Source of the DNA: Pseudomonas fluorescens
Lineage (GTDB): Bacteria > Pseudomonadota > Gammaproteobacteria > Pseudomonadales > Pseudomonadaceae
DNA length: 64,000 bases
NCBI RefSeq assembly: GCF_001623525.1
Contig: NZ_CP015225.1
Coordinates: 4,352,501 to 4,416,500, forward strand
Reading direction: 5' to 3'
The notes below the pieces were generated by a model. The model saw only the letters and a list, made by a program, of their open reading frames with translations. It made no database searches and was not told where the DNA came from. Shown here in pieces: positions 60,116 through 64,000 of this stretch. Made by a program: the position numbers and the translations under genes. The stretch's first letter is position 1. Each line of letters begins with the position of its first letter.

Positions 60116-61559
60116 TGCGTTTGACTTGGGTCTTGTGTGTATATCCATTTTTTGGGTAACGGCGGCTTATGGTTCCGCTCTTACAGCCAGCCCTTTCAAG
60201 GTCTTTTGGCTTTAGCTGCCTTGAGCACCCGATCCGTTGACACATGGGCATTCGCAGCTTTGCCTTCAAGCCACTCCTTTGACTGGGCACTTTCGGGCCT
60301 CGTTTGCTCTTGGCGACCGCTTTGGGCTGGATATTTCGAGCGAGTGCAAGCAGGTACTGAGTCAGTCCGGCAGCGGGGATCAGGATACATAGATATTCTG
60401 GCAAGGCTATTTGCATCCCCTCGTAACTGCTGCGTACCTGTACCGCTAGGTGAAAAATCGATGCTTCCCAATCATCGGGCAGGTTCTGGCGATGAGCCTG
60501 CTCGACGCTGCGTTTGAGCACGGACAGAACGTTGTAAGCCAACACGGCCGACGCAAATCCCAACAGGGCTGCTTTAGGGTTGCCCAAGGTTTCGATTTCA
60601 CTGTCCAACACCGCTTCCAGGCGCTGGAACATCCCTTCGATGCTCCAGCGACGGCGGTACAAATCGGCGATTTGCTCAGCACTGATGGAGTCGGGCAAGT
60701 TGCTCCAGAACAGCAGCGTGGCATCGCCGGATTCGGTGGGGGTTTGCAGGTTCAGTTCGACTCGCCGCCACTGGCGTCCACCTTTTACTTCAATGATTTG
60801 CTCGCGCACGCTGCCTGCCGCGACCGCGACAGGCCCCTGCCAGTCGCTTTCCTTAAGCAGGCGTGGATGTTTGCTCTGTTCGCGAATGATGAACGAGCCC
60901 CCGGTGTCTTCGCAGGCCTCCATGACCGGGAGCGTGCAGTAGAGTCGATCAGCCATCCACAGTTGCCCCGCACTGGCCTTTTCCAGCAACGGCAGCACGC
61001 TGACGCGTTCGCTGGCATAGGCATCTTCACAAGGCTGAAGATCAACGACCTGGTCCAGATCGGGGTCGTAAACCACAACGGAAAAACCAGGCCGGGCGGC
61101 GCCCCGTTCACGGCGCAAAGCGCCCAGACGCTTTTCGCTGGAAGGCAGGTGGTTACCGTCAACGACCCGTAGTTGCCAGCCAGGCAAAATGGCTGAGTGC
61201 CCCAGTTCTTTTATCGTTGGTACCAAGCGCTCTGCGCTGCCGGTGACCAGGGCGCGCAGTAGCGCAGGCTCTGTACGACTGACCTTGTCATACAGCGCCG
61301 CCAAGCTGACAGGAAGATCTTCCATCTGCCGCGCGGCGGCATGCAGCGAAGGTCGCAAGCCCAATGAAACAAGGGACATCAGTTCAACGATGGTTGAAAA
61401 CAAAAGCTCACGTGGGTACTGCCGCTGACGGTGCTCTTCGAACACCTGATCGATCCATTCAGCAGGAACAGCCTGTTCCAATACCACTCTGGTCATGACA
61501 CTGGCCGGTGCTTTTTTCTCAAACCGCGCTAGAACTTCTGCCCACACTGCTTTCGTCAC
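59979..61559 (-). CDS. IS4-family transposase, C-terminus frameshifted
   Basis: DDE transposase of the IS4 family. Catalytic regions are [10 protein letters not shown] (first Asp), LWMADRLYC (second Asp) and the [15 protein letters not shown] signature (Glu). The open frame gives 526 residues and overruns the end of the IS, reading antisense into the chemoreceptor gene. Around 60280-60285 an alternative frame gives [31 protein letters not shown] with a stop at 60196-60198 inside the left repeat. That ending, with its HVST motif, looks like the genuine family C-terminus, so one base has probably been lost near KRGPK. All catalytic residues precede the shift. Confidence 0.8.
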
Positions 61560-61659
61560 CCTGACTGGTTTTGGGGGATTTTATCAAAGACCTTGAAAGG
61601 GCTGGCTGTAAGAGCGGAACCGTAAGCAGCCGTTACCTAAATAACGGATATACATACAA
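60133..61659 (-). mobile_element. IS4-family insertion sequence with long terminal inverted repeats
   Basis: An element of about 1527 bp bounded by 74-bp imperfect inverted repeats, 60133-60206 and 61586-61659, that agree at 68 of 74 positions. The inner 36 bases (from ggttccgctcttacagccag inward) are perfect. The outer ends begin ttgtRtgtatatcc. It encodes one transposase on the minus strand. No clear target-site duplication is visible at the deduced ends. Inserted between the second chemoreceptor and the DUF6124-type gene. Confidence 0.88.
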
Positions 61660-61689
61660 AAATACCTGAGCCCCACAATCCGTCATCCC

Positions 61690-61707
61690 AAGGCTACGGA
61701 GCCTTGC
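61690..61707. other. Small hairpin between the IS and the DUF6124 leader
   Basis: caaggct / agccttg with a 4-nt loop. No U-run follows on either strand, so it is not a convincing terminator. Confidence 0.4.
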
Positions 61708-61741
61708 GCCATTGCCTACAACTACGCCAGAATCCGCCGGC

Positions 61742-61770
61742 TTGTGCGCCTTGCCCCCGGGCTCTAACGT
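61742..61770 (+). promoter_or_regulatory. Weak candidate promoter of the DUF6124-type gene
   Basis: TTGTGC, 17 bp, TAACGT. The -10 is poor, but the spacing is right and transcription would begin just before the structured leader. Confidence 0.3.
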
Positions 61771-61774
61771 TTGC

Positions 61775-61973
61775 AGGTCGCTGTCAGTTCAGCGATCGGG
61801 TTTAGCAGCTCGGCACAATATCAAGGCACGCAGGTCCGCTTTATGGCGGCTGTGCGTGGGGCACTTCGGTGCGCCGGGTTCCTTGATTCCTGGTCTGCTA
61901 ACCCGCGCACAGTCGCCACCCTTTTCGTTTAGCAGCGATGTCTGGCGGCTCCATCAATCAAGGAGCGTCAACC
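61775..61973 (+). promoter_or_regulatory. Structured 5' leader with SD-complementary hairpin loop (candidate cis-regulatory RNA)
   Basis: Hairpin P0 is tcgctg / cagcga (61778-61783 / 61790-61795). A 17-bp helix P1 pairs 61844-61860 with 61902-61918 (two G-U pairs). Inside P1 sit a UUCG-capped hairpin P2 (61861-61872) and hairpin P3 (ccggg 61874-61878 / cctgg 61889-61893). The P3 loop tccttgatt (61880-61888) is perfectly complementary to aatcaagga at 61956-61964, which carries the ribosome site of the gene starting at 61974. The loop can also pair over 7 nt with atcaagg at 61820-61826. The motif gtttagcagc occurs at 61800-61809 and again at 61927-61936, and both can pair with ctgcta at 61895-61900. 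This reads as an RNA switch; the ligand or signal is unknown. Confidence 0.65.
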
Positions 61974-62315
61974 ATGTTCAAGGCCACACCCAACCCACCA
62001 GAACCCGAAACCGACCCCAAGAAACTCCAGGAAGCCACCGACCGCGCGCTCGATTACTACCTGAAGCCCAAACAGCCCAACCCCGAAGAAAAACAGCCAT
62101 CGGGCCAGCTCTTCACCATCGTGGACGGCATCGACACTGAAAGCCTGTTGGCCAACCTCAGCGAAAACCTGGCCTCAGCCGACGCCATGGTCAGTGACCT
62201 TGCGTTCGACCTGGAAGGCTCGCGACGCCACATCGCCCTTGGTATTCAGCAACTGATCGAGCTGAGTGCTTTGTTGGCGAATCGGGCGCTGGACAACGTC
62301 AACATACAACCCTAA
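61974..62315 (+). CDS. DUF6124-type small protein
   Basis: A 113-residue acidic protein starting MFKATPNPPEPETDPKKLQEATDRALDYYL, a pattern I recognise from a Pseudomonas-restricted family often labelled DUF6124 or DUF3077. It has a disordered Pro/Lys/Glu-rich N-terminal third, then two predicted helices (DTESLLANLSENLASADAMVSDLAFDLEGS and HIALGIQQLIELSALLANRALD). There is no signal peptide or membrane segment. The ATG at 61974 follows AAGGAG. Function unknown; the structured leader implies regulated translation. Confidence 0.8.
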   Translation: MFKATPNPPEPETDPKKLQEATDRALDYYLKPKQPNPEEKQPSGQLFTIVDGIDTESLLANLSENLASADAMVSDLAFDLEGSRRHIALGIQQLIELSALLANRALDNVNIQP

Positions 62316-62328
62316 CCGCACCACGAAA

Positions 62329-62424
62329 TGTGGCGAGGGAGCTTGCTCCCGCTGGGTGGCGCAGCCGCCCCCGCTTTTTGGCGTCCGCTGCGCGGCCGAG
62401 CGGGAGCAAGCTCCCTCGCCACAG
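62329..62424. repeat. REP doublet, family A
   Basis: Arms tgtggcgagggagcttgctc and gagcaagctccctcgccaca flank about 55 bp between the DUF6124-type gene and opgH. Confidence 0.85.
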
Positions 62425-62475
62425 GTGTTAACCCTGTCCCCGGACCAAACAGTCGTGTTCACAACAGCGCCCAAC

Positions 62476-62511
62476 AAAAAGCCCCGCTTCCTTTCAGAAG
62501 CGGGGCTTTTT
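62476..62511. terminator. Bidirectional terminator between DUF6124-type gene and opgH
   Basis: A perfect 15-bp stem (aaaaagccccgcttc / gaagcggggcttttt) with a 6-nt loop has T-runs on both strands and serves both convergent genes. Confidence 0.92.
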
Positions 62512-62516
62512 GCGTA

Positions 62517-64000
62517 TCAGGCCACTTGAGGCTGCACGCTCACCGGCTGTAGCGGTAGCAGCGGTGCATGAGGATCGGCCTTGACCGACTCACGCCACGC
62601 CGCCAGCCACTCGGGATGCCCCTCGCTCCAGACCTGCTCATGCAGGCGGGACAAGGCCACCGGGTCGCTCAGCAGAGCCAGTCGCTCGGCGTTGCTGAGA
62701 CCGGCCGGGCCGGTCTTCAAGGCGTGACGAACGCGTTCGACCCGCAGCCATTCGATCGGCTCGGCCTTGCCGTGACGCGAGGTTGCCAACGCATACGCCA
62801 AGGCGTTCTGTTGTGGATCGACCACCGCCCGGATGAAACCGTCTTTGAGCGCATGCCAACGGTTTTCATGGGTGTACTGGTCCGTCGACAGCAGTTCCTG
62901 TGGCGGTGCGTATTCCTCAGGGATCAGGAACAGGCTTTCATCGCGGGACTTCAAGCCCAGGCCCACGCGGCTGGAAATCACCGATACCGGAATCGACAGC
63001 ATCAGCGAGCCGACAATCGGCACCAGCCACCACAGGAAGCTCGGGTTCAGCCAGATCACCAGCAAGGCCCAGAAGAAGCCCAGCAAGGTTTGCGGACCGT
63101 GGCGCTTGACCGCTTCGCTCCATGGCGTGGAGTCGTCGTCACGTTGTGGCGAGTTCCAGGTTGCAGCCCAGCCCAGGAATGCGGCAAGCACGAAACGGGT
63201 GTGGAAAATCATCCGCACTGGCGCCAGCAGCATGGAGAACAGCATCTCCAGGAGCATCGACAGCGTCACCTTGAACTTGCCACCGAACTCCTTCGCACCC
63301 TTGGCCCAGATCAGCACGATACTCAGCAACTTGGGTAGGAACAGCAGCACGATGGTGGTGGAGAACAGGGCGATGGCTTTTTCCGGGTGCCATTGTGGCC
63401 ACAACGGATAGAGCTGACGCGGCTCGAGGAAGTACTGCGGCTCCATCAGCGTGTTCACCGCCAACAACGCAGTGGACAGCACCAGGAAGAAGAACCACAG
63501 CGGCGCCGACAGGTAGGACATCACGCCAGTCAGGAACACCGCACGGTGCACCGGGTGCATGCCCTTGACCAGGAACAGCCGGAAGTTCATCAGGTTGCCG
63601 TGGCACCAGCGACGGTCACGCTTGAGTTCGTCCAGCAGGTTCGGCGGCAGTTCTTCGTAGCTGCCCGGCAGGTCATAGGCAATCCACACGCCCCAGCCGG
63701 CACGGCGCATCAGCGCCGCTTCGACGAAGTCGTGGGACAGGATGGCACCGGCGAACGCGCCTTTACCGGGCAGCGGCGCCAGCGCGCAGTGCTCGATGAA
63801 CGGCTTCATGCGAATGATCGCGTTGTGGCCCCAGTAGTGGGATTCACCCAACTGCCAGAAGTGCAGGCCGGCGGTGAACAGCGGGCCGTACACCCGGGTG
63901 GCGAACTGCTGCATGCGCGCATACAGCGTGTCCATGCCCGAGGCACGTGGCGCGGTCTGGATGATGCCAGCGTCCGGCGTGGCTTCCATCAGGCGCACCA
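62517..64000 (-). CDS. opgH: Glucans biosynthesis glucosyltransferase H, C-terminal part
   Basis: Inner-membrane GT2 glucosyltransferase that builds the beta-1,2 backbone of osmoregulated periplasmic glucans. The window holds roughly the C-terminal 494 residues; the start lies beyond the end. Visible are the GT2 segment ([41 protein letters not shown]), the RxxRW motif ([14 protein letters not shown]), and several membrane helices such as [22 protein letters not shown] and [23 protein letters not shown]. The gene normally follows opgG. Confidence 0.94.

Follow-up and report, generated by a model that had tools for sequence, protein, structure and literature searches.

The leader of a DUF6124 gene in the 64,000-nucleotide stretch of the Pseudomonas fluorescens chromosome analysed here (referred to as the window) encodes a C4 antisense RNA (RF01695) preceded by a c4-a1b1 element (RF03163), and it is very likely that a C4 antisense module of the phage P1/P7 type, standing alone in the chromosome, controls this gene. 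C4 is known from phages P1 and P7 (PMC12197685; PMC8198154), where it is described as an antisense RNA that is excised from the transcript carrying it (PMC5320573), and the RF01695 and RF03163 families were reported in a 2010 survey (PMC2864571). The kind of RNA is known; its setting and behaviour here are new. The features of the window locus are as follows.

61742..61770, plus strand: predicted sigma70-type promoter (-35 TTGTGC at 61742-61747, 17-nt spacer, -10 TAACGT at 61765-61770), its position conserved across loci
61764..61816, plus strand: c4-a1b1 element (RF03163; 46.8 bits, only marginally above the gathering score of 46.7, E 1e-9), with target copy b1 in a hairpin at 61798-61810
61820..61826, plus strand: a1 (atcaagg), the 'decoy' that repeats the target at the Shine-Dalgarno sequence, read from the window sequence; in four genomes a' pairs better with its own upstream region than with those of other loci
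61839..61923, plus strand: C4 antisense RNA (RF01695; full-length covariance model match, positions 1-87 of 87, 80.9 bits against a gathering score of 45, E 2.6e-15; compensatory changes)
61844..61918, plus strand: P1 helix (61844-61860 / 61902-61918) closing the three-way junction, read from the window sequence
61880..61888, plus strand: hairpin loop a', tccttgatt, read from the window sequence
61893..61904, plus strand: b', the junction strand entering P1, gtctgctaaccc, read from the window sequence
61925..61937, plus strand: b2, target of b' on the downstream side, from the window sequence and the comparison of own with other loci
61956..61964, plus strand: a2, target of loop a' (9-nt perfect complement), overlapping the Shine-Dalgarno AAGGAG at 61960-61965
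61974..62315, plus strand: DUF6124 gene, 113 aa, coordinates including the stop codon, ATG at 61974 (PF19619, 103.9 bits)

The initial annotation had proposed a leader with a 17-bp helix, a UUCG hairpin and a loop able to cover the ribosome site, and this anatomy is borne out. All 17 pairs of P1 are standard (two are G-U), the UUCG hairpin (P2) is present, and the loop of hairpin P3 is the exact complement of aatcaagga ahead of the ATG, with 7 nt of the same complementarity repeated in the upstream decoy. The second set of competing pairs that had been noted, gtttagcagc (61800 and 61927) against ctgcta (61895), corresponds to b1 and b2 against b'. Both loops have complements around the downstream ribosome site as well as in the upstream a1b1 copy, as in other C4 RNAs; the gene that follows is a DUF6124 gene and does not belong to a known antirepressor family, unlike ant in P1, the C4 family being defined by the RNA. 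The suggestion that the complementarities exceed chance also holds, with a leader fold z-score of -3.27 (0 of 200 shuffles as stable) and the low E value of the C4 match. Competing pairings around a ribosome site, with a decoy and a DUF6124 gene, are therefore retained from that annotation, whereas its failure to recognise a named family is corrected by the Rfam scan, which rules out an unknown RNA family. Each of the sequences AATCAAGGA and TCCTTGATT has a single occurrence on the plus strand of the 64-kb window.

Homologues support both P1 and the pairing of the loop with the Shine-Dalgarno region, the latter through the preference for own pairs in four genomes described below. Among the 25 C4 copies of the source genome the TGG at the start of P1 and the CC near the 3' end are invariant (25/25), and RNAalifold recovers the C4 fold with 26 predicted pairs, 15 of which have at least one two-sided compensatory change. 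Two further elements flank the cassette. A DDE transposase gene (PF01609; 59979-61559, minus strand) lies directly upstream, between the cassette and a chemotaxis-receptor gene, and a long palindrome at 62330-62422, 3' of the DUF6124 gene (gtggcgagggagcttgctccc...gggagcaagctccctcgccac), gives weak matches to miRNA models and looks like a Pseudomonas REP pair.

A pattern search, satisfied in some cases by a loose match, located the a1b1 hairpin in 152 of 163 C4 loci of four genomes. In 129 of these 152 a TANNNT begins 12-13 nt ahead of the hairpin, and in 111 a TTG begins 35-36 nt ahead of it; because these positions are conserved the RNA probably starts at a1b1 and continues through C4 into the DUF6124 gene. 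A generic promoter scan requiring at least 9 of 12 matches lists none in 61000-62700. A transcript starting downstream of 61918, which had been named as the case that would speak against a leader switch, finds no support given the conserved -35 and -10 boxes.

We propose that a single transcript, starting near 61777 by inference, would carry a1b1, C4, b2/a2 and the DUF6124 gene. The C4 segment would fold as a three-way junction, its 5' end probably being cut by RNase P at the start of P1 to yield an RNA of ~77 nt, and the released RNA would be able to act in trans. Loop a' would then lie on a2 over the Shine-Dalgarno sequence and b' on b2, so that DUF6124 would not be translated; by analogy with icd/ant in P1, repression of DUF6124 translation is the most likely effect of C4. 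Since a1b1 would bind the same two C4 loops, an excess of a1b1 would relieve the repression.

The module is present many times in the same chromosome. On its single contig of 6.9 Mb the source genome carries 25 C4 RNAs and 24 DUF6124 genes, and comparison of the two lists places a C4 just upstream and on the same strand of 21 of the 24. The remaining three comprise two genes that match a1b1 without matching C4 and one that matches neither model. Three further genomes behave similarly, with a C4 no more than 450 nt upstream of 102 of 122 DUF6124 domains and DUF6124 downstream of 102 of 138 C4 RNAs. Across 59 genomes of the genus, C4 is present in 54 (0-54 per genome, 1011 in total, with at least 20 copies in 26 genomes) and DUF6124 in 47 (0-43 per genome, 703 in total), and the two counts are correlated (Spearman 0.88). 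Among 274 genomes sampled from the class, searched for C4 with stricter filters than the genus, C4 is found in 18, with 1-6 copies except in the source genome, and DUF6124 in the source genome only. We also note that L231 and L240 belong to a 1.5-Mb genome of another genus (G319) with six C4 matches, of which four are clustered on a single contig in a span of 1.4 kb.

Among 50,697 phage records DUF6124 has a single match, and among 72,556 plasmid records it has none; in IMG/VR a relative is encoded in 35 loci, of which 13 of the 15 scanned have a C4. In one of these (L188) the C4-DUF6124 cassette sits between the tail-fibre side and the tail sheath gene of a contractile-tail prophage with P2-like gene order, and in another (L195) a tail-fibre assembly gene is visible and two C4 RNAs occur in tandem. 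The interval between tail-fibre and sheath genes is a usual place of accessory genes in P2.

Five DUF6124 genes (L029, L030, L403, L407 and L412) have an upstream a1b1 match without a C4 match, the a1b1 matches of L403, L407 and L030 being under the cut-off and that of L412 far under it. From their sequences these look like genes that have escaped control through loss of C4.

The loops differ between copies, and on average each fits its own target much better than those of other loci. We compared 163 C4 loci, consisting of the 25 of the source genome and all of those listed from the three further genomes (55, 42 and 41); an ORF is called in 157, with its start codon 44-57 nt past C4 in 148. 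Over these 157 loci (the six without a called ORF left out, fixed positions), the mean energy of the own a'-a2 duplex lies between -12.1 and -13.9 kcal/mol in each of the four genomes, whereas the means for a' at other loci lie between -7.0 and -7.7, a preference reached by 0 of 10000 shuffles in each. The b'-b2, a'-upstream and b'-upstream pairings likewise favour the own locus in all four. The preference is an average one: the own a2 is the best site for a' in only 14/23, 22/52, 22/42 and 23/40 loci, and the own b2 is the best site for b' in only 1/23, 6/52, 4/42 and 5/40. In the source genome 16 of 25 own a'-a2 pairs contain a perfect run of at least 7, against 9 of 600 non-own pairs, counts that include the loops of L003 and L024 as mis-cut by the pattern. 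Requiring both loops (a' run of at least 8, b' run of at least 6) sharpens the separation to 62 of 149 own pairs against 2 of 5746 non-own pairs within a genome.

Nearly every copy has its own a' window, with 22/22, 41/41, 38/39 and 47/47 distinct windows per genome (fixed positions, 14 of the 163 loci dropped: the six without an ORF and eight with an odd start distance). With the two-loop key fitting its own lock so much better on average, the tens of copies in a genome would act largely independently. Avoidance of cross-pairing within a genome is not significant (164 of 2000 label shuffles are as low), and the insulation may therefore simply follow from the diversity of the keys. Viral C4 loci are less selective than chromosomal ones (own a'-a2 -14.3 against -9.5, own best in 15/62). 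We also considered whether the chromosomal keys form an anti-phage repertoire and rejected this, as two-loop matches to viral loci (6/9238) show no clear excess over those between chromosomal non-own pairs (2/5746).

Comparison of two sister species reveals that key and lock change together while the gene stays. In 23 syntenic pairs, taken as reciprocal best gene matches that agree on one flank or both, a' is identical in 9 and different in 14. For 11 of the 14, pairing across the two species falls short of the own pairing by a margin above 2 kcal/mol (own -13.8 against cross -9.4 kcal/mol over the 14; Wilcoxon p 0.0017). Both flanks match in 5 of these 11 switched pairs; two of the 11 (L123/L161 and L126/L165) lie in tandem arrays and are of doubtful orthology, the L165 leader being 99% identical to that of L127 rather than L126, and the best ORF match of L161 being L160. 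Median identities in the 9 unswitched pairs are 94% for the promoter, 98% for the leader, 100% for the stems, 100% for the loop, 97% for the ribosome site and 92% for the ORF, and in the 11 switched pairs 92%, 63%, 83%, 53%, 57% and 91% respectively. This looks more like exchange of a block running from a1 to a2 than like base-by-base change. Possible donors of the keys are visible in the leader of L161, which is 97.6% identical to that of L171 in the same genome, and in that of L162, which is 93.5% identical to that of L138. Some switched leaders are still largely alike (84% for L128/L168 and 88% for L145/L184), so that block exchange and base-by-base change may both occur.

The window's own site offers a similar picture. 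The glycosyltransferase gene beside the cassette was located in 80 named Pseudomonas loci, and DUF6124 is downstream in five of them (L241, L242, L243, L245 and L246), all among the six best-matching records; the records of L244, L248 and L281 end too early to show a downstream DUF6124. C4 is above the cut-off in these five loci and in 0 of 9 other glycosyltransferase loci scanned. Where the site is empty the chemotaxis-receptor gene follows within 54-231 bp, as in 8 of the 30 records listed of the 67 with a match. The key CCTTGATT is shared by the window, L242 and L245 (L245 with a different b'), whereas L241 and L243 have CTAGGG and L246 has CGTTTAC, and each of these keys, read by eye, has a matching a1 and a2. 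Loop and target thus appear from these sequences to have changed together here as in the syntenic pairs. Over 676 nt of the cassette L241 and the window share 82% identity, but L241 is 2.7 kb farther from the glycosyltransferase gene, and the gene of L246 looks decayed; whole cassettes may also have been swapped at this site.

The genes that follow C4 are predominantly of the DUF6124 type (121 of 157 loci), and the others in the four genomes encode DUF3077 proteins, further small proteins and Bro-N proteins (L066, L104, L105 and L187, with Pfam run on L066 and L105), with a few apparently decayed. The L049 DUF6124 protein has a weak additional match to DUF3077. Six post-C4 genes of other genera were tested, and three match AntA, pRha or Bro-N while three have no match; of seven tested from 62 viral C4 loci, five match Bro-N, pRha, AntA, KilA-N or DUF3077 and two have no match. 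A link between C4 and antirepressors is therefore visible around the C4 family. A family of ORFs of ~52 aa (M..L.PSKIRALAHRRMALAALHANSSL...RYNHHM) also follows C4 in viral loci L351, L359, L361, L364, L368, L384 and others and in chromosomal loci L113 and L182, and has no Pfam or PHROGs match among the members tested.

The AlphaFold2 model of the window's DUF6124 protein is a helical hairpin (residues 55-79 and 82-109) after a loose start (pLDDT 77.8, pTM 0.50). Foldseek finds no PDB match to the model with E < 0.9, and a sequence profile finds none in the PDB up to E 1. PHROGs returns nothing for DUF6124, a PADLOC scan of four proteins against anti-phage models is negative up to E 0.01, and Pfam gives DUF6124 only, with no match to a known antirepressor family. 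At the start of the protein, P-N/D-P-P is found in 116 of the 121 C4-controlled DUF6124 copies and in 0 of the 3 source-genome copies without C4. A start was found for 18 additional copies that have no C4 directly upstream, and two of these (L405 and L406), both second genes behind a C4, have the motif. The third bases of the TPNPP codons vary, so the conservation is at the protein level, and a meaning in the RNA was rejected. The start MFKxTPNPP (61974-62000 in the window) is conserved in C4-controlled DUF6124 copies, is absent from most of those without C4, and recurs in certain proteins outside DUF6124 that are under C4 (L067, L073 and L110).

In each of the four genomes a repressor gene of similar type is transcribed divergently from one C4-less DUF6124 copy (L049, L410, L414 and L415); the repressor beside L049 has S24 and HTH_3 domains by Pfam, and in all four genomes the iron sRNA PrrF (at least 158 bits) flanks the DUF6124 copy on its other side. 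These repressor-adjacent copies, together with the antirepressor company of C4, lead us to infer, weakly, that DUF6124 is a small antirepressor. We further put forward, as a tentative idea that may well prove wrong, that in Pseudomonas the phage C4 immunity lock has become a chromosome-wide set of tens of parallel two-key locks on small antirepressor-like proteins (DUF6124, DUF3077 and their kin), and that the a1-to-a2 block could be exchanged between loci and species such that a gene would switch 'immunity group' in one step, a difference like that of P1 from P7 but arising within bacterial chromosomes.

Other explanations of the locus deserve consideration. C4 might never be released, with the nascent RNA choosing a1b1 (ON) or b2/a2 (OFF), perhaps tuned by a signal, in line with the translational switch of the initial annotation. 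All of the pairing partners do lie in one predicted transcript and pair with their own leader, and the absence of a terminator between a1b1 and C4 means that the window has no ready-made short RNA. We nonetheless consider such a cis-acting switch unlikely, as a signal-sensing device has no need of keys that differ between copies and the C4 family is described as a processed antisense RNA (PMC5320573). It is more doubtful still that DUF6124 is harmful and each C4 its private antidote, in the manner of a type I toxin-antitoxin system. In type I systems the antisense RNA comes from the opposite strand and the toxin is a small membrane peptide, whereas C4 is on the gene's own strand and transcript and the 113-aa protein is predicted to be a soluble-looking helical hairpin without a PADLOC match. 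Many parallel copies with their own keys, the existence of decayed copies, and the description of icd, the first gene under C4 in P1, as stopping cell division (PMC8198154) would agree with an antidote, but two copies in the source genome and several elsewhere keep a1b1 without a C4 match.

The minimum-energy fold of the window contains a local hairpin around a2 (GCTCC/GGAGC), and this could in principle keep the Shine-Dalgarno sequence closed with C4 incidental. That is very improbable, since a stem of at least 5 pairs is only weakly enriched (118 of 149 loci against 62% of shuffles), the Shine-Dalgarno core is in the 3' arm in 72 loci, and the preference for own pairs is left unexplained. 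Least credible of all is a phage relic without present function: although C4 is a phage RNA family and some loci are decayed, the high copy number in 26 of 59 genomes is at odds with it, as are leaders and C4 stems that stay more alike between the two species than the ORFs do in the unswitched pairs. A C4 antisense module controlling the DUF6124 gene is thus the reading that we prefer.

The Pseudomonas module resembles C4 of P1 and P7 in its fold, its two pairing loops, the upstream and downstream copies of the target and the covered ribosome site, but differs in that icd/ant is controlled there and a lone DUF6124 gene here, and in having tens of copies per chromosome with keys that vary between copies and sister species. 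In the account given in PMC5320573, b' covers the ribosome site and a' pairs upstream, whereas here it is the hairpin loop that covers the Shine-Dalgarno sequence, a difference of naming or of geometry. The Group 1 C4-like sRNAs of Acinetobacter baumannii described there are also numerous in the chromosome (21 similar sequences) and have a variable loop a'; their targets are only suggested and their processing is shown by RNA-seq, whereas in Pseudomonas a pairing gene adjoins nearly every C4 and the RNA is predicted from sequence. In isrK-orf45-anrP of the Salmonella prophage Gifsy-1 (RF01394) a short RNA from the front of the transcript likewise opens up the ribosome site of a phage gene further downstream, IsrK being reported to act in trans with a 139-fold effect on anrP translation (PMC4825925). 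The isrK model touches the window at 61777-61844 with only 28.6 bits, below its gathering score of 50, and unlike isrK the window has no terminator-like site between 61777 and 61839 in our scan; a T run of at least 6 lies between a1b1 and C4 in 16 of 18 C4 loci of other genera among those listed.

Our literature search found no paper naming DUF6124 and none linking C4 to DUF6124, DUF3077 or a Pseudomonas gene family, although the supplement of the 2010 survey may list such genes; the single DUF3077 paper that it returned deals with furfural tolerance. What is unusual is that one Pseudomonas chromosome has ~25 C4 locks with different keys, and that in sister species the same gene is found with another key and a matching lock. 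Because nearly every C4 is accompanied by its pairing gene, a single genome provides tens of natural key-lock pairs for the study of antisense specificity, and the association with C4 is a lead on the function of DUF6124.
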